DNA of 21,477 nucleotides from a virus, in the IMG/VR virus record IMGVR_UViG_3300050010_000309, positions 1-21,477 of that record; one strand, given 5' to 3'. Each line of letters begins with the position of its first letter. The first letter of the stretch is position 1. The notes under the pieces are model-generated. The model had not been told where the DNA came from and did no database searches. It saw only the letters and a program-made list of their open reading frames with translations. The position numbers and the translations under genes are program-made. Positions 5,997-19,051 of this stretch are shown here, one piece after another.

Positions 5997-7286
5997 TCAA
6001 TCAAAGGTTACGGTAAAGGGCAGTTCGTACAGGCTCCCCGCCACGTTGTAATAAAATTGCACCGCGCCCGGCGTCATCCCGCCGGGATAGGTGATGGTCA
6101 GTTGTGTGCTGCTCAAATACTGGCAGGCAAATTGGGTTACGCTCACCGTGCCAAACTGCAACACCCCTCCTTGTGACGGATCAAACCCGGTGCCGGTGAA
6201 GGTCAACAGCCCGTCATTGACGGACGTGGGATTGGGCGAACAACTGGCAAATGTGGCGGCATTAGGTTGCACGTTCACTTCGCCGGATTGTGGACTTTCC
6301 CCGCTATTGGCCGTGGCCGTCACTTTGTAAAAATACGTCGCGTCATACCGCAGCCCGGTATCTGTGTAATCCGTCCCACTAATCCCGCTGGCGCAAAGCG
6401 TTGCGGTGCCGGAAGCGGTCCCCCGGTAAAGGTTGAACGCGGTGGCCCCCGCCGGAGCCGTCCAACTCACGGTAGCCGCATAATAGCCTTGCGTGACCTC
6501 CACCCCGCTTGGTGCGGTCAAAGCATTCGGGGTACACGTCACCGCCGCGCACTGCGGCCCCTCGACTCCGTTTATGACCGCGCTGACCGTATAGCTGTAA
6601 GTCGTGGCCGCCGTCAAACCGGCATCTTGGTACGTCAAACTGGAAGTCCCGCAAACCACCGAGCCGTTGCGGTAAAGGTTGTACGTCACACTGGGAAACA
6701 GCGTATCCCCCGCCACCGCCGACCAACTCAAATCGCTCTGGTAATAATCCGTTGTCGCGGCCAGCCCGGTCGGCGCTGTGGGTATCAGTCCCGCCGCGCT
6801 CACCGATGCGGTCTGCGGACTTTCCCCGCGCACCGTGTAAATCGTCACCGTGTAATAGTACGTCGTCCCGGCAACTACTGTGCTGTCGGTATAGGTGGCG
6901 GCGCTGGTGGAGGCCAGTTTGGTGAAGGTCACATTGTCCTTGCTGCGATAGACGTTGTAGGCGTAATTCGGCGAGGAAGCCGCCGTCCACGTTAACACGA
7001 TCTGGCCATAATCCCCCGTCGCCGCCAATCCCGTTGGTCCGCTGGTCACTGGGGCCGGACTGCCAGGAATGATGGTCATTGGCGCGGTCGCCAGATATGC
7101 CGCATTGATCTGGGCGAGAATCGCCGCCGCGTCCGTCGCGTCCGTGGCCGGAATCAGCGTGGCGGTCGGGTTGCTCGTGACGAGATTGACATAGTTTGAG
7201 CCGTCATAAAACATGGCGTCAATCGCGTCCAGAAACACTTGAATCTGGTTGCTACCGGAGTAAGGTAAAAGAATGGCTCGTCGCAT
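5997..7286 (-). CDS. Tail protein with three FnIII domains and a C-terminal IPT/TIG-like domain
   Basis: 429 residues. I chose ATG 7286, which follows the previous stop as TGATATG, rather than an upstream in-frame ATG at 7343 lying inside the nozzle gene. Residues about 1-80 form a unique head. Three fibronectin type III repeats follow, at about 83-170, 171-260 and 262-345. Each begins with a PTGLAAT- or PSGVEVT-like strand and contains W, YNVYR/YNLYR/FNLYR and a TYYY/TYSY/TYFY strand. The last about 85 residues (NDGLLTFTGTGFDPSQG ...) look like an IPT/TIG immunoglobulin-like fold. Such domains decorate phage tails and may bind surface carbohydrate. There is no catalytic motif. The tail role is inferred from domain type and neighbours. 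Confidence 0.85.
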   Translation of the reverse strand: MRRAILLPYSGSNQIQVFLDAIDAMFYDGSNYVNLVTSNPTATLIPATDATDAAAILAQINAAYLATAPMTIIPGSPAPVTSGPTGLAATGDYGQIVLTWTAASSPNYAYNVYRSKDNVTFTKLASTSAATYTDSTVVAGTTYYYTVTIYTVRGESPQTASVSAAGLIPTAPTGLAATTDYYQSDLSWSAVAGDTLFPSVTYNLYRNGSVVCGTSSLTYQDAGLTAATTYSYTVSAVINGVEGPQCAAVTCTPNALTAPSGVEVTQGYYAATVSWTAPAGATAFNLYRGTASGTATLCASGISGTDYTDTGLRYDATYFYKVTATANSGESPQSGEVNVQPNAATFASCSPNPTSVNDGLLTFTGTGFDPSQGGVLQFGTVSVTQFACQYLSSTQLTITYPGGMTPGAVQFYYNVAGSLYELPFTVTFD

Positions 7287-7287
7287 A

Positions 7288-9975
7288 TCAGTTTTGATTT
7301 TTGGCCGGTGCAAATTCCGGCTGGTCCAGCGCCACGGCGGCAAACCTGGCCCGCAGCAGGGTGCAACCGCTCAACACCAGCTTGACTTGAAAATCATACC
7401 CTTCGCGCATAGGCCGGTTGTTGCTGGCGTCATACACGTTCGCCGCCGGTTCCCCCAGTCCAATGCGCGGGCGGAAGCCGCTGTCATTGGGCTGGTACCC
7501 TACGCTGGTCGTGGCCCACGGCGTCCAAGCCGTGTTTTGGTCCACCCGGTAAAACGCTTGGACCGTGGCTCCCTGTGGCTGAATGTCCCGAATCCACATT
7601 TCCCCGTTCACCAGCCGCTTAAAAACGTCCCCTTTTTGCGAAAACACCATCGGGGTTTCGATTGTGAAGCTGACCGGCGTCAGGCCGTTATCCAACTGCG
7701 CCGGAGCCGGACCGCCCCCACTCCATGAGGCATCCAGCGGGATTTGCACGAGTTGAATCGTGGCCGCGCTGGTGTTGTCCGACAAACACAACGCATAGCA
7801 TTGCTTGCTGCCATTGAACATGCCGGTGATGATCTGCAACACGTTCAGGCCCACCCACTCACCGTCCCATACTGGCGGTGACTTGCCCCCCAGTGACGAA
7901 ATCGGGTCATAGTTCAACGCCACCATTGCCTTGCCCGCCACGCCCCGCGACATCTGCGCGAGCTTGCAGGTCATCAGCATCCGGTTATTGAACACCGCCA
8001 TGCTGGTCCACGGCAACAGCGTGGGCGGGTCGTTGTCGGTGCTGCGGGAAACCTCCTTGCTGATTGGCGTATTGCCCCACCGGTTGAAATCCAGCCGTGC
8101 CATGAGCAAACTCTGCACCCCACCATCTGATAAGCGAAAGAGCAAGTCGCCGTTGGTTTGCACCACGGCGTCTTGGGCAATGGCCCCGGAGCCAATCAAA
8201 CTTTCCGTCAAAATGGGATAATTCAGGTTGGCCCAGGTGGACATGTCCGGCGGCGCGTTGCAGGTAAACACCGTGTCATCGGTGAACACTTGCACCGGCC
8301 CCTGCCCCAAACTGGCATCCAGTTGCGCCACCAACGCCATTGCCGTGATCTTCTCGCCAGAACCGGGAATGGAAAACGTCCCGCCCCCGGCCAAAAAGTA
8401 GTTTTGGCTCACCTTCAACACCGCATCCCGGTAGCCGGTCGGGGTGCCGCTGGATGAACCTACAATATCCCCGGCAATAAAGCCGTTGCCTGCTTGGGTG
8501 CTGAACCAGTTGCGCCCCGCCGCGTAACAACCCATCCGCGCCGCCTCGTAAATTTCCGGCAAGCTGTAAATCGCGACGCCCGCCGGGTAGCCATTCGGGG
8601 TCAATACGTCAGTGGTGGTGCCCGTGTTGCTCGCGCCTGGCGTGTCATTGAGATTAATGACCGTGATTGACGGCGTGGTGGTGGTCGTGGCGTTGATACA
8701 GGACGTGACCAGAAACAAATCCACCGAACCATTGGTGGCGGTGATCTGAACAAGTTGCTCCACCGCCGCCTGGGTGCCGCTCGTGTTTGGCGTGTAGGGC
8801 ATGTTGGCAATCGTGGCCGCAACGGACTGGCTGGTGGTCGTCACAATCGCCCCGTCAGTGGTGGTGCCATAGTAGCCTACGGAAGTCGTTGCCGGGCTGG
8901 TGTTGGAAGTGTTGACCACGATTTGATTGATCTCGGGCGTGCCAATCGGAATCATGGTGTAAGTGCCGGATGGCAGCGTCACCATCTGACACTCCACCAC
9001 ATTACCATTTACGGAAATCACCTTGAACGTGCAAAGCCCATTCGTTGCCGACGTGCCAAACTGCAAAATGTTTCCAACCGTCACGGAATTGACCTGCGTG
9101 AGGGTCAGGTAAAAGTAATTGGCGTTGGCGGTCGTGCCTCCGTTCATCGTGCCCGGGGTGGTTTCCGTGAAACTTCCGCTGGCACTGGAACCGGACGCGA
9201 TTACTTTCGATGAACCGACGTAAGTATAATACTGCCAAGTGATCGAAGGAATGTTCACCGTGCCCGCAATGTTTATTCCGGTAGCGGACGACGCTGATGG
9301 CGTGCAAGTGAGACTAGTAACATAAAAGCTGCTGTTGGAAACAAGGCTGCTAATAACGCATGACTGGTTATTAACCGTGATGGTCATACCCACTTGGGCG
9401 ACAGCGTAGGTGTTGCTCGCATTAACGAGGGCCATTCCTTGCGCTAATATCTTGGCAGAATCAAAAAGGCTTAACCCGCTCACTGGAATCGTGAAAGCCG
9501 TTCCGGCCACACCCGCCACGGCCAAGGGTGGAAAAGCACTGATGCTGTTTCCGTTCGCGTCCGTGGCATCTTCGATCATGCCAAGATATTTGCTGTTGAG
9601 CAAAATCGCCGTGCCTGGCGCAATCAAATCCGTGCCTCCAAGCTGGTTGTAGATGATGCCGGCCAAAGAAAGCTGACTGACGCTCCCGGTGCCCTTGGAC
9701 GTAATGCCCACCACGTCATAAAGCGCGGCATTGATCAACACCGGCCCCAGATTGCCGGTGAAGTTTTCGGAAAGGTTAACCGTCACATATTGGTTTTGAG
9801 CCGGAATGGCAAAAAAGGCGGACGTGGACCCCAAGTTGACCAGTGACCCGCCCAGCGATTTGCGCGCCGTGTTGCCATCATAGAACACCGGCAGGGATTG
9901 GCCGTCCGTCCAAATAACCCAGCTTTCTGACTGCCAAAGCCAGTTTTGCAACGCGGTGTTGGATTGGATGGGCAT
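7288..9975 (-). CDS. Tail nozzle/stabilisation-like protein, main body (C-terminal part of a split nozzle)
   Basis: 895 residues. The start (MPIQSNTALQNWLWQSESW ... DGQSLPVFYDGNTARKS) resembles the internal 'Q-E-F-V-Q-DG...YDG-ARR' segment of podovirus tail-nozzle proteins rather than a normal N-terminus. Residues about 200-480 are a Thr/Ser/Val-rich beta region with little family signal, possibly inserted. From about 500 the order matches nozzle proteins: LPEIYEAARMGCYAAG, YFLAGGGTFSIP, LDASLGQGPVQVFT, NGDLLFRLSDGGVQSL, NNRMLMTCK, GGKSPPVWDGEWVGL, then GYDFQVKLV near the end. These proteins form the tail tube below the connector. The missing N-terminal domain is encoded by the gene just upstream, in the same frame, across TAG-TCT-ATG. 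Family assignment is from memory of conserved motifs. Confidence 0.82.
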   Translation of the reverse strand: MPIQSNTALQNWLWQSESWVIWTDGQSLPVFYDGNTARKSLGGSLVNLGSTSAFFAIPAQNQYVTVNLSENFTGNLGPVLINAALYDVVGITSKGTGSVSQLSLAGIIYNQLGGTDLIAPGTAILLNSKYLGMIEDATDANGNSISAFPPLAVAGVAGTAFTIPVSGLSLFDSAKILAQGMALVNASNTYAVAQVGMTITVNNQSCVISSLVSNSSFYVTSLTCTPSASSATGINIAGTVNIPSITWQYYTYVGSSKVIASGSSASGSFTETTPGTMNGGTTANANYFYLTLTQVNSVTVGNILQFGTSATNGLCTFKVISVNGNVVECQMVTLPSGTYTMIPIGTPEINQIVVNTSNTSPATTSVGYYGTTTDGAIVTTTSQSVAATIANMPYTPNTSGTQAAVEQLVQITATNGSVDLFLVTSCINATTTTTPSITVINLNDTPGASNTGTTTDVLTPNGYPAGVAIYSLPEIYEAARMGCYAAGRNWFSTQAGNGFIAGDIVGSSSGTPTGYRDAVLKVSQNYFLAGGGTFSIPGSGEKITAMALVAQLDASLGQGPVQVFTDDTVFTCNAPPDMSTWANLNYPILTESLIGSGAIAQDAVVQTNGDLLFRLSDGGVQSLLMARLDFNRWGNTPISKEVSRSTDNDPPTLLPWTSMAVFNNRMLMTCKLAQMSRGVAGKAMVALNYDPISSLGGKSPPVWDGEWVGLNVLQIITGMFNGSKQCYALCLSDNTSAATIQLVQIPLDASWSGGGPAPAQLDNGLTPVSFTIETPMVFSQKGDVFKRLVNGEMWIRDIQPQGATVQAFYRVDQNTAWTPWATTSVGYQPNDSGFRPRIGLGEPAANVYDASNNRPMREGYDFQVKLVLSGCTLLRARFAAVALDQPEFAPAKNQN

Positions 9976-9978
9976 AGA

Positions 9979-11454
9979 CTAATAATGTCCAGACAATGCC
10001 GGTACGCTGCTGATTGCGCCGGTGGTCAGATTTACCGCCCGCACCGTCCCATAATAGGTGGTCCCAGATACCGCATTGAAAGACAATGAATACTGGCCCG
10101 TGCTGGAAGTGGCTGCGGGCGGCAAATACACGATGGGAGAACCGCCGAAAGCCACGAGGTAGCCCGTTGCCGCTACTGGCGTCCAAGAAATAGTGATGCC
10201 AGTGGCACTAACCGTCATAGCTGCATTACTTGGAATCGCGGGTATCGAGGCGGTAGGCGTTGCGCTGATGGTGGCGGAATATGCACTTTCGCCATTGGCG
10301 TTTACCGCTGTCCACGCATAGCTGTACGTCGTGCCATTCGTTAAAGCTGTGGCGTTATACGTCAGCACGGAATTGCCAGCAAAACTTGGCGCGGTAAGGC
10401 CGCTGGCAAGCTTGGTGTAAACCCCGCCACTCACCTGGTACAAATTGTAACTGGTGGCCGCTGGCACCGCAGAACATAGCAATAATGCCCAAGCGGTAAA
10501 ACCGTAAGCATAAACCCCGGTGGGTGCCGCCGGAGCCGAAAGCGGAGAAGCGCTGACTTCGCTTGATTTTCCACTGGTGCCCACAAAATTGATTGCGCTC
10601 ACTGTATAGTAGTAGGTTATCCCATTGCTCACGGAATTGTCCGTATAGTTGGGCGTTGTCAACCCGCTAGCCAACGCGGTCGCCGACTCACCGCCGGACG
10701 TGACTCCGCGAAAGACCGAGTAAAAGTATGCCCCGGACACGCTGTTCCACGCTAACACAATCTGGCCACTGGACGCAGTTGCCGCCAAACCAGTTGGCGT
10801 TGCTGGGGCGGTTGTGGGCGCAAATGGCGTGGCCGTCACTTGGCCGGAATCACCGCTGGTCCCACCTCCGTTTACTGCTTGTACTGCATAATAATACGCG
10901 GTGCCATTCAACGCCGTGCCATCCACATAGCCGGTTCCACTCGCTGCGGTTGCAATCGTAGTGTAAGTCGTTGCGCTCCCCGTGGTGTTCCGCAAAATGT
11001 TGTAGCTGTTGGCATTGGCCGGAGCCGTCCAGGTTATCAGCACTGCGTTGTCTTGCGCCGTGGCGGTCAGCCCGGTGGGTGCGGATGGCGCGGAAACGAT
11101 ATTTGTGCCCAAGATAATTTCCTCGACATAGCAAGACCCGTTTTCCACGGTCAGTTGAAACAGGTTCCCGCCCACCGCCACCATGATGCAGGCTTCGCCG
11201 CTGTCCGGCAAAAAGTAGCACGCCCCTTGGAAGATGCCCGTGTTGAAGTCCAGTTGCGTTTGCGCACTCTGAAACACCAAAGGCAGATTCAAAAACGGCG
11301 GGCGCTGGTGGACAAAGTCACCGCGCACCGTGGCATTTTGGGCAAAGGAAAGTTGCTCCGGCTCCAACAACAGCGGGTCCACGTCTGAATTCACCCCTTT
11401 GGGGAAGCTTTTCAGAAAACCGTAAATGCGGTTGGGTGGTGGCTGGATGGGCAT
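9979..11454 (-). CDS. N-terminal nozzle domain followed by four FnIII domains
   Basis: 491 residues, starting at ATG 11454 in a TGATATG junction with the upstream gene. Residues about 1-120 (PKGVNSDVDPLLLEPEQL, NATVRGDFVHQRPPF, TGIFQGACYF, VAVGGNLFQLT) match the usual first domain of nozzle proteins, whose remainder is encoded by the next ORF. Four FnIII repeats follow, at about 122-210, 213-305, 307-400 and 402-485, recognised by APTGLTAT-type first strands and YYYAVQA / YYYTVSA / YSYAWTA strands. The ORF ends with TAG, and the next ORF continues in the same frame after one codon. It could be a separate chain that joins the nozzle or, by readthrough, part of one 1388-residue protein. The FnIII array is unmistakable; the split-nozzle reading is inferred. 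Confidence 0.83.
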   Translation of the reverse strand: MPIQPPPNRIYGFLKSFPKGVNSDVDPLLLEPEQLSFAQNATVRGDFVHQRPPFLNLPLVFQSAQTQLDFNTGIFQGACYFLPDSGEACIMVAVGGNLFQLTVENGSCYVEEIILGTNIVSAPSAPTGLTATAQDNAVLITWTAPANANSYNILRNTTGSATTYTTIATAASGTGYVDGTALNGTAYYYAVQAVNGGGTSGDSGQVTATPFAPTTAPATPTGLAATASSGQIVLAWNSVSGAYFYSVFRGVTSGGESATALASGLTTPNYTDNSVSNGITYYYTVSAINFVGTSGKSSEVSASPLSAPAAPTGVYAYGFTAWALLLCSAVPAATSYNLYQVSGGVYTKLASGLTAPSFAGNSVLTYNATALTNGTTYSYAWTAVNANGESAYSATISATPTASIPAIPSNAAMTVSATGITISWTPVAATGYLVAFGGSPIVYLPPAATSSTGQYSLSFNAVSGTTYYGTVRAVNLTTGAISSVPALSGHY

Positions 11455-12576: not shown

Positions 12577-12578
12577 AT
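12570..12578 (+). promoter_or_regulatory. Candidate extended -10 element for the packaging operon
   Basis: TG-C-TACAAT matches an extended -10 (TGnTATAAT) at all but one base, with no convincing -35. It would start RNA near 12585, below the ATG at 12577 and above the GTG at 12604. A second weaker copy, TGCTACATT, occupies 12589-12597. Both overlap the operator half-sites. Confidence 0.35.
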
Positions 12579-14406
12579 GTTTTGCAAGTGCTACATTCGC
12601 CCCGTGAACCAGTATGGCATACCCTGGCCCGATGATGCCTCCCCGCTGGAAATTGAATTGGGGATGATTCGGCGGCGTTACGGCCAACCCGGAGCCGTGG
12701 CCCATTATCTGGCCGCGCACCGGCTCCTTTGGCCCGAAGATCAGCCGCACCGCTGGTTCGTTCAGGGACTCACCGCCATCGTTGAAAATAAGGTCACTGT
12801 CCTCCTGGGCTGCGCTTCCAGCGGCAAGACCTACCTCATGGCCGTCCATGCTTTGATTGATTTTTTTGCCTTCCCGCATACCACCTTGTCCCTGTTGTCC
12901 TCCACCGACATTCGCTCGCTCGAACTGCGCATTTGGGGACGCGGCATTAAATTTCTGTTCAATCGAGCCAAAACCCGTTTCCATGAACTCCCCGGCTACG
13001 TCCTCGAATCCAAGCTGGCCATTGTCCCGGATGAAGTGGACGAGGATTCGCAATTCGCCCGCGAGATCAACAAGGGCTTGGTGTGTGTCCCGTGCGTCTC
13101 CGGGGGGCGCTTCGTGGGCATGTCCAAGTTTCAAGGCGTCAAACCCCCGTCCAGCCCCGGCAAGAACGATGGCATTTTGAAGCATTACGGGGACGAGGTG
13201 GCCGTCATGCAACCTTCCTTGTTGGATGGCTACACCAACTGGATGGCCAACGCCCGGTTCAAGGGCGTCATGGCGGGCAACCCCACCGACATTTCGGACC
13301 CCCTCTGCACGGCCAGCGAACCGGTAGGCGGCTGGGATGCCTTCATTGACAACGAAAAAACTCAAGTCTGGCGCTCCCGCTGGCACGATTCATTCTGCCT
13401 GGCCTTCGATGGCCGGGACACCCCCAACGGGGACGAGCCAAAAGACCAATACGCCTTTCTGGCCAGCGCGGATTTCGTTCCCAAGCTCGTGGCGACTTAC
13501 GGCGCGGACTCGTGGCAGGTCTATCAACAAGGGATTGGGAAGCCTTCCAAGGGCATGGTGTCAAACCGCGTCATTACCCTCGGCCTGTGCGAACGACACC
13601 ATGCCTTCGATTTAGCCATCTGGCAGGGCGCTGGCCAAACCAAACTCTACGCCCTCGACCCGGCGTATGGCGGTGGAGATCGTTGCGTCGGCGGAGAATT
13701 GCAGTTCGGACCCGACAAGAACGGTCAATGGATTCTTTCCGTCGCCAGCCCGGAGATCATCCCCATCCGCCTCCACTGCGGCATCGAACCAGAAGAACAG
13801 ATTGCCGATTTTATCTGGCAACGCAGTCAATCCCTGCGCATCCCGCCGGAAAACATCTTCTACGATGCTTTTGGACGCGGCACGCTGGGCTTTGCTTTCG
13901 CCAAGAAATTCGGCGCGGCCTGCCCGGTGCCTGTGGACTCCGGCGGCAGGCCCACCGATAGGCCCGTGCGGTTCGATTTGTTCGTGGACGAGCCAAACGG
14001 CGTCCGTCGCCTCAAACGCTGCGACGAGCATTACTCCAAATTCGTCACGGAAATGTGGTTCAGCACCCGCGAAGCCATTGAATCCGGGCAGGTGCGTGAT
14101 TTGCCCCTCGAAACCGCCCGGGAAGGCCAGTTGCGCCTGTTCAAAGTGGTGGCGGGCAACAAGGTGGAAGTCGAAACCAAGGACGACATGAAGGAGCGGA
14201 TTAAAAAATCCCCCGACTTGTACGACCAATTTGCCATCGGGGTGGAAGGTGCCCGCCGGCTGGGCTTCCGCATTGAACGCATAGGCCGCGACGTCAAGCC
14301 GCCGTCCGGCAAGGAAGAAGACTTCTTTGAAACCGAAACCAAGGAATGGGACGCCCTGTTGAAGTCCGGCATGTTGAAACGCTCCACCCCCAACGCTTTT
14401 GCCTGA
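12577..14406 (+). CDS. terL: Terminase large subunit (ATPase/nuclease packaging motor)
   Basis: 609 residues if translated from ATG 12577. That ATG abuts the operator and lies above the likely transcription start, so the in-frame GTG at 12604 or ATG at 12664 may be the true start; no Shine-Dalgarno decides. The ATPase domain has Walker A GCASSGKT (78-85), a likely Walker B acidic pair in HYGDEVAVM (D206, E207) and a coupling motif in MAGNPTDISD (232-241). The nuclease domain has the expected acidic residues: D361 in LDPAYGGGD, D430 in FYDAFGRG, and D547/D550 in KSPDLYDQFA. The protein cuts concatemeric DNA and drives it through the portal, encoded three genes downstream. No small terminase is recognisable nearby. 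Confidence 0.93.
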   Translation: MFCKCYIRPVNQYGIPWPDDASPLEIELGMIRRRYGQPGAVAHYLAAHRLLWPEDQPHRWFVQGLTAIVENKVTVLLGCASSGKTYLMAVHALIDFFAFPHTTLSLLSSTDIRSLELRIWGRGIKFLFNRAKTRFHELPGYVLESKLAIVPDEVDEDSQFAREINKGLVCVPCVSGGRFVGMSKFQGVKPPSSPGKNDGILKHYGDEVAVMQPSLLDGYTNWMANARFKGVMAGNPTDISDPLCTASEPVGGWDAFIDNEKTQVWRSRWHDSFCLAFDGRDTPNGDEPKDQYAFLASADFVPKLVATYGADSWQVYQQGIGKPSKGMVSNRVITLGLCERHHAFDLAIWQGAGQTKLYALDPAYGGGDRCVGGELQFGPDKNGQWILSVASPEIIPIRLHCGIEPEEQIADFIWQRSQSLRIPPENIFYDAFGRGTLGFAFAKKFGAACPVPVDSGGRPTDRPVRFDLFVDEPNGVRRLKRCDEHYSKFVTEMWFSTREAIESGQVRDLPLETAREGQLRLFKVVAGNKVEVETKDDMKERIKKSPDLYDQFAIGVEGARRLGFRIERIGRDVKPPSGKEEDFFETETKEWDALLKSGMLKRSTPNAFA

Positions 14407-14729: not shown

Positions 14730-15136
14730 ACCTGCTGCAAGAATTCAAAGATGACGCCCAAGCGTTGGCCATCCTCCGGGACTGGCTGGGGGGCGGCGGG
14801 GAGCCGGTCACGCCCGCCCTGGCCCAAGAACGCGCTGACATTTGCTGGGACTGTCCGCAAAACAGCCCGGTTCACACTTCGCAGTTAAAGCTGAACGTGG
14901 CCAGGCTAATCAAGCAAGGCTTGCAAATCAAACAGCAAGTCAACTTGCGCACCGCCCGTGACCCGGACTTGCACGTTTGCAAAACCTGCCGTTGCGTTCT
15001 CTCCCTGAAAGTCTGGGTGCCTATCCGCCATATCCGGGCGCACACCACGGATGACCAGCTTACCAAATTTCCGGCCCACTGCTGGATACCCAAGGAAACA
15101 CTATGCCAAATTTTTCAGAACCATCCAAAGTCTTAG
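14726..15136 (+). CDS. Conserved phage protein with paired CxxC motifs, probable zinc binding
   Basis: 136 residues, beginning in an ATGA overlap with the previous gene. Cysteines occur as CWDC (40-43), CKTCRC (85-90) and CW (119), with a conserved SLKVWVPIRHI stretch and a FPAHCWIPKE end. This resembles small phage proteins seen between terminase and portal genes. Two cysteine clusters suggest one or two structural zinc sites. The last 34 bp overlap the portal start in another frame, and the conserved part ends at CWIP just before that overlap, so the tail may be dispensable. No enzyme motif is seen; the function is unknown. Confidence 0.78.
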   Translation: MNLLQEFKDDAQALAILRDWLGGGGEPVTPALAQERADICWDCPQNSPVHTSQLKLNVARLIKQGLQIKQQVNLRTARDPDLHVCKTCRCVLSLKVWVPIRHIRAHTTDDQLTKFPAHCWIPKETLCQIFQNHPKS

Positions 15137-17388
15137 ACACCATCCGTGCCGGGGATGAAGCCGAATTTTCACGCGGGGAAAACCGCGTCCTGATCAACCG
15201 CGCCGCCAACAATGAGCCGCTGTTTGACGAGGACGAGGCCAAGCGGCTGGGCATGAAGATTTTCAACCGCTGGGGCGAACTCATGGGGGCGCTGTCCCAT
15301 GCCCGCCGCCAGTACCTTTCCAACTTCATGTCCCCGCCCAATTTTTTCAACGTGTCCTTGCCCAAATCCCCGGATGAAGTCCGCGCCGAATGGGAAGGCA
15401 TCATTACGGAAACCATCAACGAGCGCATGAAGGAAGGCGAAGGCGCGTTGCAATTCTTTGAACTGCACCGCTCCCGCTGGGCGGCGGTGGTGTGTCACGG
15501 CATCGGTCCGATGCTTTGGGAAGATGAATTCTCCTGGCTCCCGCGCTTCGTTGCCATTGAGGACTTGCGCGTTCCCACCGACACCGAATTGTCTTTCCGC
15601 AACCTGACGTGGTTTGCCGTCCGCATCCCCTACACCCCGGGCGAACTCTCGCGCAAGGCGTTTTCTGATGCCGTCAGCAAGTTTCAATGGAACCGACCCG
15701 CCGTGGCCAAGCTGCTTTCCAGCGTGCAGGAATGCAACACCGTCATGGCCGAAAACAACTACGATTGGAACAGTGTCCCGGAAAAGTTTGAGGAATTGCG
15801 CAAGCAAAACGCCGGTTATTGGACCGGGGACGCCATGCCCACAATCAACCTTTGGCATTTTTACCACGAGGACGAGGACGGGAACTGGAATTTGAAGGTG
15901 GTCCCCGAAAATAACACCGCTGGCACCACCTCCGCCGACGAGGACGAATTTGTTTGCCAGTCACAAGAACCGGTGGCCGGAACCTGGCGGCATATCCTCC
16001 ATGTCCAGTTCGGCGATCTGAACAACAAGGCACCCTTCATGTATCACAGCGTCCGCAGCCTTGGCTTTGCCTTGTTCGAGCCATGCTACTGGACGGATTA
16101 CACCCGCTGCCGGTTGCTGCAACACACGCTGGACCAATTCAACATCATGCTCCGCGTAACGGACCCCGTGGACCGTGCCCGCGCCCAAATTCAGGTGTTC
16201 CAAAATCTGGCCGTCTTGAAACCGGGCGTCAACATCATCCCCCAAAGTGAGCGCCACCAAGTGGACGCCGCGCTGGTGGAATCCGTGATGGCCCAAACCA
16301 AACAACTGCAACAGGAGGCGTCCACTGCCTACACCCAACAAATTGACACCGGCACCAAAAAGGAACAGACCGCGTTTGAAGTGGGCGTCCACGTCCAGCA
16401 AAACAACGCCATGCTGTCCGGCCTGATGTTGACCGCTGGCATTTATGAAAAATTCGCCGCCAAGGAAATCTGCCGCCGTTTCTGCCTCCAAGGCTCTGAC
16501 GATAAGGACGTGGTTGAATTCCAGAAGGAATGCAAAAAATCCGGCATCCCGCGCGAGTGGCTGGACGAAAAAAAGTGGCGCGTGGAAATAAACCTGCCTT
16601 TGGGCAACGGCAATCCCACGATGGCGATGGTTGAATCCGAAAACGCCTTGAAGCTCCGGCCCATGTTGGACCCCACGGCGCAAGCGGAAGCCCTGCATGA
16701 TGCCGCCGTGCAAATGGTGGGTGCCAAACGCGCCCGCCGCTGGGTGAAGATCAACCCGCCCAAGGTGAGTGAAGCCAGCAACGCCGCCGCCAACGCCTTC
16801 CCGCTGATGATGCTGGGATTGCCCCCGCAAATCCCGGAAGGGCTGAACCCGATTCAGCAGATTCAAACCCTGTTGGGGCTGGCGGGCGGTTACATCGTGA
16901 GCATTGAGAAAACCACCAAGGTGCCCACACCCAAAGAACTCACCGGGTTGCAAAACGTGGTGGGATACCTGGGCAAGCTCATTCACGGCATGAAGGGGGA
17001 CACCGGCAACGAGCAACTCTACAAGAAGTTCAACCACGACTTGATGCAGTTGACCAACGAACTCAAAAAGCTGCAACAAAAGCTGCAAGCCGAAATGGAA
17101 AAGCGGGCCCAGCAAAAGGACGGAGGCAAGGCCCAACTCCTGTTGGCCGAAACCAAGGCCAAACTGCAAGCCGAACAGGCGTTGACCAACCAGAAGTTGA
17201 AACACAATGAGTTGATGGCCCGGCAAAAACTCCGCACCCAAGAAGTGAAGGACCAACAGGCCCGGCGCCATGCCGAAGTTGGCCACGTTGGCGATCAGCG
17301 GCGCAAAGCCGTGTCCACCGCCACGGATATTCACTTGAAAAAGGAAAGCGCCAAGGCCAGCCAAAAAGCCCTGGATAAAGACGAATGA
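15103..17388 (+). CDS. Portal protein (podovirus-type head-tail connector)
   Basis: 761 residues, with AAGGAAA 8 nt before ATG 15103. The size, the location after terL, and the segments MKIFNRWGELMGALSHARRQ, GIGPMLWEDEFSWLPRFV, EDLRVPTDTELSF and a helical C-terminal half fit podovirus portal proteins. Twelve copies would form the ring through which DNA is packaged and to which the tail attaches. Residues about 395-440 hold a Gln-rich TKQLQQEASTAYTQQ stretch next to the likely stem/clip region. Residues about 640-761 are a long charged Lys/Gln/Glu-rich coiled coil that could be a barrel extension. The stop overlaps the next ATG (ATGA). Confidence 0.88.
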   Translation: MPNFSEPSKVLDTIRAGDEAEFSRGENRVLINRAANNEPLFDEDEAKRLGMKIFNRWGELMGALSHARRQYLSNFMSPPNFFNVSLPKSPDEVRAEWEGIITETINERMKEGEGALQFFELHRSRWAAVVCHGIGPMLWEDEFSWLPRFVAIEDLRVPTDTELSFRNLTWFAVRIPYTPGELSRKAFSDAVSKFQWNRPAVAKLLSSVQECNTVMAENNYDWNSVPEKFEELRKQNAGYWTGDAMPTINLWHFYHEDEDGNWNLKVVPENNTAGTTSADEDEFVCQSQEPVAGTWRHILHVQFGDLNNKAPFMYHSVRSLGFALFEPCYWTDYTRCRLLQHTLDQFNIMLRVTDPVDRARAQIQVFQNLAVLKPGVNIIPQSERHQVDAALVESVMAQTKQLQQEASTAYTQQIDTGTKKEQTAFEVGVHVQQNNAMLSGLMLTAGIYEKFAAKEICRRFCLQGSDDKDVVEFQKECKKSGIPREWLDEKKWRVEINLPLGNGNPTMAMVESENALKLRPMLDPTAQAEALHDAAVQMVGAKRARRWVKINPPKVSEASNAAANAFPLMMLGLPPQIPEGLNPIQQIQTLLGLAGGYIVSIEKTTKVPTPKELTGLQNVVGYLGKLIHGMKGDTGNEQLYKKFNHDLMQLTNELKKLQQKLQAEMEKRAQQKDGGKAQLLLAETKAKLQAEQALTNQKLKHNELMARQKLRTQEVKDQQARRHAEVGHVGDQRRKAVSTATDIHLKKESAKASQKALDKDE

Positions 17389-17765
17389 AAATCATCATCC
17401 AAACCATTCCGCACGCGCAACAGTCCTATCCCACGGTGGGCGATTGGCGACGTGGCCCGGATGGCACCCTCAAAATCAACGTCAGTTCCGAAATCGGGCG
17501 CAAATACGCCTTGCTGGTGGCGCTCCATGAATTGATTGAAGTGACCTTGTGTGAAGACCGGGGAATCACTTGTGAAATGGTGGACACTTTTGACAAAAAG
17601 TTTGAAGAACACCGACACCCGGACAATTACAGCGAGCCGGGGGACGACCCCGCCGCGCCGTACCGGAACGAACATTTTTTTGCCACCAACATTGAGCGCC
17701 AAATGGCCCATGAAATGCAAGTGGACTGGGCCGACTACGAAGCCGCGATCGACGCCCTGCCATGA
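17385..17765 (+). CDS. Conserved phage protein with a HELIE (HExxE) motif
   Basis: 126 residues, in an ATGA overlap with the portal gene. The core is a beta-rich start (MKIIIQTIPH, YPTVGDW, DGTLKINVS), then a helix carrying ALHELIEVTLCE (H48, E49, E52), then DTFDKKFEEHR and the conserved EPGDDPAAPYRNEHFFATNIE. The order is typical of a small phage family found near portal genes. HELIE resembles the zinc-peptidase HExxH helix with the second His replaced by Glu; more acidic and His residues follow (E74, H76, H97) that could complete a metal site. Whether it is a peptidase, a metal-binding scaffold or neither cannot be read from the sequence. Its stop overlaps the ATP-grasp gene start. Confidence 0.75.
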   Translation: MKIIIQTIPHAQQSYPTVGDWRRGPDGTLKINVSSEIGRKYALLVALHELIEVTLCEDRGITCEMVDTFDKKFEEHRHPDNYSEPGDDPAAPYRNEHFFATNIERQMAHEMQVDWADYEAAIDALP

Positions 17766-19051
17766 AACCCCTTTCCGAACTTCACTGCCTCGTGGTGGAT
17801 ACCGGCCTTTTCCTCCACATCGCCCGGCGGCTCGCCCGTGACTACGCCAAGGTTTACTACTGGTCCCCGTGGGAAACCGCGTTCCCCCATTTCCGGGATG
17901 ATCTGCCCGGCGATGGATACCCGGACATTACCCGCGTGGAATCCGTGGAAGGCATCGAGGACAGCATTGACTTGGCCGTGTTCCCGGATATTGGCTATTC
18001 CGACCTGCAAAAGCGGCTGGCCAAGAAAATGCCCGTGTGGGGATGCCGTGGCGCGGACGTTTTGGAGGCCCGCCGCGGGGAATTCTTGAAGGTGTTGAAG
18101 GCGGAAACGGATTTGCCCGTTCCCAAGGCCGAAAAAATCAAAGGCGTCACCAATCTGCGGCTGTTCTTGGCCGACAACCCGGACCAATACATCAAAGTGT
18201 CCACCTACCGGGGGGATTTCGAGACGTTCCATTTCCGCAGCATGGAGGAAGACGGCCCCATCCTGGACGACATTGCCGCCAAGCTCGGACCCATCAAGGA
18301 AAACGTGGTGTTCTACGCCTTCTCTGACATTGAAACCGAGATTGAGGACGGCATTGACACCTACTGCATTGACGGCCAGTGGCCGACCACGGTCATGCAC
18401 GGGATTGAGAACAAGGACAAGTCCTTTGTCGGCTCATTCCAAAAAATGGCCGACATCGCCCCCGAAACCAGTTGTGTGAACCATGCTTTCGGCCCGATCT
18501 TGGCCAAGTACGGCTACCGGGGGTTCTTTTCCACGGAAGTCCGCATCACCCCGGAGAAGGAAAGCTATTTCATTGACCCCACTTGCCGCGCCCCCAGCCC
18601 GCCCAGCCAGGTTTTTTGCGAAATGACGGCCAACTATGGGGAAATCATCTGGCAAGGCGCTCAAGGCAATCTGGTGGAGCCGGAAGCCAATGCCCAATTC
18701 GGCGTCCAAGCCATTTTTAAGTGTGACCGTGACCATTGGAACGTGCTGAAAATCCCGGAAGAACTCACTGAATGGGTGAAGGTGGGTTTTTCCTGCAAAA
18801 ATGACGGCCTGATTTGTGTCCCGCCCCACCCCGAAGGCGTCTCTGAAATCGGCTGGGTCTGCGCCATCGGTGACACCGTCCCCGAAGCCATTGAATCGCT
18901 CCGGGAAAAGGTGGACTTGATGCCGGAAGGCGTCCATGTGGAATTCGAGTCCTTGGCCAAGCTCCTGACCGAGATGAAAACCGCCAAGGAGGCGGGAATT
19001 GAGTTTTCGGAGCAACCCATCCCCGAACCGGCCAGCGTCATTGAGGCATAA
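17762..19051 (+). CDS. ATP-grasp ligase, PurD-like
   Basis: 429 residues, in an ATGA overlap with the HELIE gene; last gene of the packaging operon. Residues about 6-90 look like the Rossmann-type front domain of ATP-grasp enzymes (DLAVFPDIGYSDLQKRLAKK). The ATP-grasp core follows: RGADVLEARRGEFLK (96-110), LPVPKAEKIKG, the nucleotide lysine segment YIKVSTYRGDFETF (143-156), and the metal-binding region FFSTEVRI ... YFIDPTCRAPSPPSQ (255-283), where E259 and D272 are likely ligands. A C-terminal segment (GWVCAIGDTVPEAIESL) resembles the PurD C-terminus. ATP-grasp enzymes join a carboxylate to an amine via an acyl phosphate. The substrate is unknown; purine synthesis, peptide tagging or protein modification are all possible. 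Confidence 0.82.
   Translation: MKPLSELHCLVVDTGLFLHIARRLARDYAKVYYWSPWETAFPHFRDDLPGDGYPDITRVESVEGIEDSIDLAVFPDIGYSDLQKRLAKKMPVWGCRGADVLEARRGEFLKVLKAETDLPVPKAEKIKGVTNLRLFLADNPDQYIKVSTYRGDFETFHFRSMEEDGPILDDIAAKLGPIKENVVFYAFSDIETEIEDGIDTYCIDGQWPTTVMHGIENKDKSFVGSFQKMADIAPETSCVNHAFGPILAKYGYRGFFSTEVRITPEKESYFIDPTCRAPSPPSQVFCEMTANYGEIIWQGAQGNLVEPEANAQFGVQAIFKCDRDHWNVLKIPEELTEWVKVGFSCKNDGLICVPPHPEGVSEIGWVCAIGDTVPEAIESLREKVDLMPEGVHVEFESLAKLLTEMKTAKEAGIEFSEQPIPEPASVIEA

Follow-up and report, generated by a model that had tools for sequence, protein, structure and literature searches.

A virus-specific ATP-grasp ligase family of PurD fold, tied to phage packaging operons and to exchangeable partner genes

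We describe a family of viral ATP-grasp proteins that descends from the fold of PurD (GAR synthetase) yet is no longer PurD. With a probability of roughly 0.55, we consider its member P0001 to be an active virus-specific carboxylate-amine ligase whose amide product is needed at assembly. The stretch of DNA analysed (hereafter the window; 21,477 bases) carries on its plus strand, in this order, genes for the terminase large subunit (TerL), two small proteins, a portal-like protein, the HELIE protein and the ligase (Table 1). The ligase open reading frame is a genuine gene, since full-length homologues with 62–70% identity are present in other IMG/VR viral contigs. Two genes with fibronectin type III domains lie elsewhere in the window and diverge from the packaging operon.

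Table 1 Coordinates of features in the window and in related loci
Feature	Locus	Positions	Strand	Remarks
Source window	IMGVR_UViG_3300050010_000309			IMG/VR virus record, 21,477 bases
Fibronectin type III gene	Window	5997–7343	-	PF00041, E 5e-12
Fibronectin type III gene	Window	9979–11454	-	PF00041, E 2e-10
TerL, P0004	Window	12577–14406	+	phrog_2, E 1.1e-7
Portal-like protein, P0003	Window	15103–17388	+	761 aa; portal inferred from synteny
Portal-like gene/HELIE overlap	Window	17385–17388	+	ATGA stop-start overlap
HELIE protein, P0002	Window	17385–17765	+	126 aa; putative metal-binding partner of the ligase
HELIE/ligase overlap	Window	17762–17765	+	ATGA stop-start overlap; translational coupling
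Ligase, P0001	Window	17762–19051	+	ATG start; 429 aa; virus-specific PurD-fold ATP-grasp ligase (predicted)
SpeD-like gene	L079	9646–10008		
SpeD-like gene	L092	9499–9873		
SpeD-like gene	L119	7563–7988		
SpeD-like gene	L128	7564–7989		
SpeD-like gene	L136	882–1235		A further 24 loci carry such a gene
HELIE fused to Erv1/Alr-like domain	L067	11413–12096		PF04777, E 4e-8
Giant polyvalent (ParB/ART) or DarB-like protein	L066	3732–9833		Beside the ligase
Giant polyvalent (ParB/ART) or DarB-like protein	L087	5696–9850		Beside the ligase
HNH/AP2-type homing-endonuclease-like ORF	L028	9488–9952		Recognised by eye
SET protein	L194	113–559		Patescibacteria
LPG_synthase_C-like aminoacyl transferase	L194	483–1496		Patescibacteria
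PurD-like ATP-grasp protein	L194	1462–2901		Patescibacteria

The ligase is recognised only through profiles and structure, not by single-sequence searches: P0001 alone matched no Pfam, PHROG or NCBIfam model, and a sequence search of the PDB returned nothing useful. A profile of a 50-member alignment (A2) compared with PDB sequences had PurD structures as its best six matches (including 2yw2, 5e-5, and 1vkz, 3e-4). The AlphaFold model derived from A2 (mean pLDDT 94.5, pTM 0.92), which replaced a poor earlier model from 9 sequences (pLDDT 63), likewise found PurD 2yw2 as the top Foldseek match, with agreement over the full-length fold (E 4e-19, TM 0.71/0.72) at 14% sequence identity. PurK, PurT, biotin carboxylase and L-amino-acid ligase ranked next, R2K and RimK peptide ligases were absent from the best 50 PDB matches of the model, and no described viral protein in BFVD matched it structurally over its full length (best TMq 0.45). 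The modelled structure thus has the fold of the ATP-grasp superfamily, and an earlier description of the protein from sequence alone (the sequence-only reading) as a PurD-like ATP-grasp enzyme was right with regard to fold, profile and Foldseek both ranking PurD first.

With PurD, P0001 shares the full-length fold and residues of general ATP-grasp chemistry. The PurD models TIGR00877 and PF01071 did not match P0001, and one of 50 ligase relatives matched GARS_A (E 0.12). In an alignment with cellular PurD (A3), the N-terminal GGREHA motif is gone from the viral family, which has D-x-G-x-F instead, and the ExNxRFGDPE motif reads DPTCRAPSPP in P0001, with loss of the GDPE segment. The metal-binding ExN of PurD is DxT or DxC in the ligase family, and 121 of 128 members carry Thr or Cys at position 274, the site of the second metal-binding Asn in PurD. 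Glu259 and Arg261 are added relative to PurD, and the invariant E259 and N291 further distinguish the ligase. In a FastTree tree built from 128 viral plus 19 cellular sequences, all viral members cluster in a single starred group outside PurD, although long branches meet at this group and its attachment point is therefore uncertain. A purine context was also lacking: SAICAR synthase (PF01259), the sole purine family searched, was found in 0 of 46 long related records and in all 14 control genomes, where absence from the 46 records is suggestive only because these may be fragments. Given the missing profile match, the lost motifs, the separate clade and the lack of purine context, we reject P0001 as a true PurD. 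The sequence-only reading had already doubted a plain metabolic role, and a purine role does appear to be the wrong reading; the family falls outside cellular PurD in the tree, and every homologue retains the ATP-binding residues.

Ten residues (K145, R150, E154, D199, E216, K218, E259, D272, R276 and N291) are invariant in all 128 full-length distinct members, even though identity to the window protein, as seen in the 50-member alignment, falls to 32%. By analogy with ATP-grasp enzymes in general, these residues would be suited to binding ATP and metal and to stabilising an acyl phosphate. Since they include the ATP-grasp Lys, the metal Asp and an Arg, P0001 is probably an active ligase. The nucleotide and metal residues that the sequence-only reading had seen are not the set of PurD, the second metal-binding Asn being exchanged for Thr or Cys.

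Among cellular proteins, the nearest relatives found were a diverged PurD-like set from Patescibacteria (L194–L201; hhalign E 5e-10). The viral HMM scores these proteins mostly at 37–51 bits, whereas four true PurD of the host-genome set were unmatched. They are without GGREH, and most carry ExTxRFGYPT, sharing the Asn-to-Thr change with the viral family. A search of 145 Patescibacteria genomes gave matches in 29, and the subfamily was present in eight or nine genomes with strong matches. Unlike the viral ligases, these proteins are cellular and no portal context was seen; the L194 protein matches TIGR00877 weakly, below the cut-off. Two genes upstream of its gene, L194 encodes a SET protein 38–42% identical to SET proteins found beside viral ligases, with the LPG_synthase_C-like aminoacyl-transferase gene in between. 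That viruses and a bacterium share this unusual SET/PurD-like combination hints that the two proteins are functionally linked, albeit from one bacterial locus. Among viruses, amide formation has been proposed for other ATP-grasp ligases, namely R2K and others (PMC4431377, PMC7824862) and a LUZ24-like enzyme (PMC3890496). The gene of the latter is located among early genes, together with those for an amidoligase and a glutamine amidotransferase, unlike the packaging setting of the ligase described here.

Two overlapping scans of IMG/VR gave 219 and 144 confirmed stretches, of which up to 80 loci per scan were pooled with seven genome contigs and reduced to at least 134 distinct viral ligase loci. 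Six of the seven genome-contig loci belong to metagenome-assembled genomes, and the seventh to Bradyrhizobium sp. YR681 (L092), in which the ligase gene is flanked by a SpeD-like gene before it and one of the P22-type portal family after it. The L092 record carries no label of a metagenome assembly, so a culture test might be feasible. Searches of INPHARED phages with tblastn returned no match for four ligase members, HELIE, the portal-like protein or one SpeD.

The gene slot adjoining the ligase is occupied by different proteins, HELIE in 51 of the 134 loci, a SpeD-like protein in 29 and a SET-domain protein in three; HELIE and SpeD are both present in six loci, and 57 have no recognised partner. 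HELIE lies within 2 kb of the ligase in each of the 51, upstream in 38 and downstream in 13. The translational coupling read from the ATGA motif was confirmed, and the exact 4-nt overlap of HELIE and ligase recurs in 24 of the 38 upstream loci (dereplicated, window included). HELIE has no relative in Pfam, PHROG, NCBIfam or among solved PDB structures, and a scan with the single protein recovered near-identical copies only. Its invariant residues are H48, E49, E52, C56, D70, P92, Y93, H97 and E104, and all but the Pro and Tyr resemble putative metal ligands. One group of downstream HELIE proteins has an additional C-terminal domain resembling Erv1/Alr sulfhydryl oxidases, detected by profile in L067 and by sequence similarity to it in L065, L069, L077, L078, L082 and L085, always adjoining the ligase. 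The view that the neighbours of the ligase are all structural is not borne out, since the coupled neighbours (HELIE, SpeD-like, SET or the Erv1/Alr fusion) look enzymatic or metal-binding.

SpeD/AdoMet-decarboxylase-like genes are located upstream of the ligase in their 29 loci, 21 of them at a distance of -16 to +3 nt. In the ligase tree they occur in clade II only, whereas clade I, which includes the window, has HELIE or SET partners. Matches to PF02675 (AdoMet_dc) exceeded the 25-bit cut-off for L119 (6e-14), L136 (5e-7) and L079 (2.5e-6), fell below it for L092 and L128, and were absent for L147. The pyruvoyl Ser63 and Cys83 are present in 29 of 29 proteins, and His68 is found in five and replaced by Asp in 23, which speaks against a true AdoMet decarboxylase. 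TIGR03330, the model of the true enzyme, scored 38.2 bits for L119 against a cut-off of 75.65 and did not match L136 or L079. SpeD occurs in 6 of the 46 long related records, and a comparison of coordinates placed it next to the ligase every time. Some SpeD homologues of phages are known to act on ornithine or arginine as decarboxylases (PMC9992855, PMC10407285), and share size, PF02675 membership, the pyruvoyl Ser and the catalytic Cys with the clade II partners; the latter differ in having mostly Asp at the His68 equivalent and in their coupling to an ATP-grasp ligase, a partner that a term search did not find within either paper. The SET-domain partners are encoded in L042, L045 and L073 (PF00856, 2.9e-8), with a 4-nt overlap in L042 and L045.

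Upstream of HELIE in the window, P0003 has no Pfam or PHROG profile match of its own, and we call it a portal because of its position after TerL and because P22-type or SU10-type portals adjoin the ligase in relatives. A P22-type portal is encoded upstream of the ligase in L075 (PF16510, 1e-56) and downstream in L083 (PF16510, 5e-69), and a SU10-type portal adjoins it in L070. The coupling of HELIE to a portal gene, as first read from the sequence, stands for the ATGA overlap, and the identity of the portal comes from synteny. Members of the portal-like family F1 precede the ligase in 39 loci, and F1 may be an unrecognised portal family; its profile comparison with P22-type portals gave no significance over the body of the protein. 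Ligase and F1 distances co-vary across 36 loci (Mantel r 0.62, 0 of 2000 permutations), and in L035, L049 and L075 the portal gene is coupled straight to the ligase without HELIE. The ligase closes the packaging operon in the window's subgroup, as the sequence-only reading had it, but many relatives continue with scaffold-like and capsid-like genes. The connection with head assembly does not hold throughout the family, because some clade II ligases have a polyvalent (ParB/ART) or DarB-like neighbour in place of the portal. Giant proteins of these kinds were observed beside the ligase in L066, L067, L069, L085 and L087. Homing-endonuclease-like ORFs of HNH/AP2 type (by eye) occur between the portal-like gene and the ligase in L028, with F26 ORFs in L026 and L030; the F26 ORFs were set aside as insertions.

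Based on the fold and the conserved residues, we propose that Mg-ATP activates a carboxylate to an acyl phosphate with the participation of Lys145, Asp272, Arg276 and Glu259, and that an amine would then attack the acyl phosphate to form an amide. In the roughly one fifth of relatives that have it, all in clade II, the coupled SpeD-like pyruvoyl decarboxylase is the probable supplier of the amine, considering the ornithine- and arginine-decarboxylating phage homologues. In the window's lineage it could be drawn from the host pool, with HELIE acting on the same pathway. The operon position points to a role of the amide at assembly or ejection, and a need for its product at that stage may be why the ligase is made alongside the proteins of the head and of packaging. 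This product could be a virion component carrying a small amine, or a cationic amide that is packaged or ejected together with the DNA. More specifically, and only tentatively, the ligase, fed by the pyruvoyl decarboxylase or by the host, would amidate a portal or capsid protein while the head is assembled, the HELIE or SET proteins acting on the same target. Against the general proposal stand the window itself, which is without SpeD, the 57 loci in which no partner was recognised, the polyvalent or DarB-like neighbours of some clade II ligases and the Thr or Cys at the second metal-binding position.

Several other explanations start from the same genes. The coupling to SpeD could equally reflect conjugation of a small polyamine, in which a small carboxylate would receive putrescine or agmatine of SpeD origin in a glutathionylspermidine-like reaction with no protein target, tuning host polyamines or neutralising packaged DNA. 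The ornithine and arginine decarboxylases among phage SpeD homologues would fit such a pathway, as would the report of phages with a glutathionylspermidine synthetase homologue (PMC9992855). We nevertheless regard it as unlikely, though deserving of attention, since SpeD is restricted to clade II, the SET and HELIE partners are left unexplained, and no spermidine synthase (PF01564) was found in 30 of the 46 long, possibly fragmentary, related records. The polyvalent (ART/ParB) and DarB-like genes adjoining some clade II ligases would instead be in keeping with modification of host proteins or counter-defence, the late-operon position meaning that the enzyme is co-packaged and ejected like those proteins. 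This appears improbable given that packaging genes are next door in the window and in clade I, and that no PADLOC family was matched.

Phages with putrescinyl-thymine exist and the PurD fold is nucleotide-related, so the ligase might serve DNA hypermodification by decorating a modified pyrimidine with an amine or an amino acid, one of the roles suggested in the sequence-only reading. However, thymidylate synthase/hydroxymethylase (PF00303) was found in 0 of 46 related records, which may be fragments, compared with 9 of 14 control genomes, and the ligase gene sits in a packaging operon, which makes this role very improbable. We give hardly any credence to auxiliary purine synthesis by a diverged but working PurD: PurD is the best fold match, but the loss of GGREHA and GDPE, the position outside PurD in the tree and the distribution of PF01259 all speak against it. 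Just as implausible is an inactive structural or scaffolding protein that keeps the ATP-grasp fold, to which the replacement of one PurD metal ligand (Asn) could point, because the Lys, Arg, Glu and Asp residues of the core never vary among the 128 members, which is difficult to reconcile with a lack of catalysis.

The favoured carboxylate-amine ligase joins a known element, the ATP-grasp fold, to a viral setting and partners for which we found no earlier account. Our literature search found no description of the ligase/partner cassette, and an earlier one could be contained in work on amidoligases (Iyer et al. 2009). The partner genes, one of which encodes an amino-acid decarboxylase, suggest that a so far undescribed chemical modification is made late in infection, and a pyruvoyl decarboxylase working with a carboxylate-amine ligase would offer concrete, testable chemistry. 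The family is widespread among mostly uncultured phages, unrecognised by the libraries searched, and tied into the packaging operon with swappable partners. If the proposed amidation of a portal or capsid protein is true, it would constitute ATP-grasp modification of a virion by a phage-encoded amidation system.
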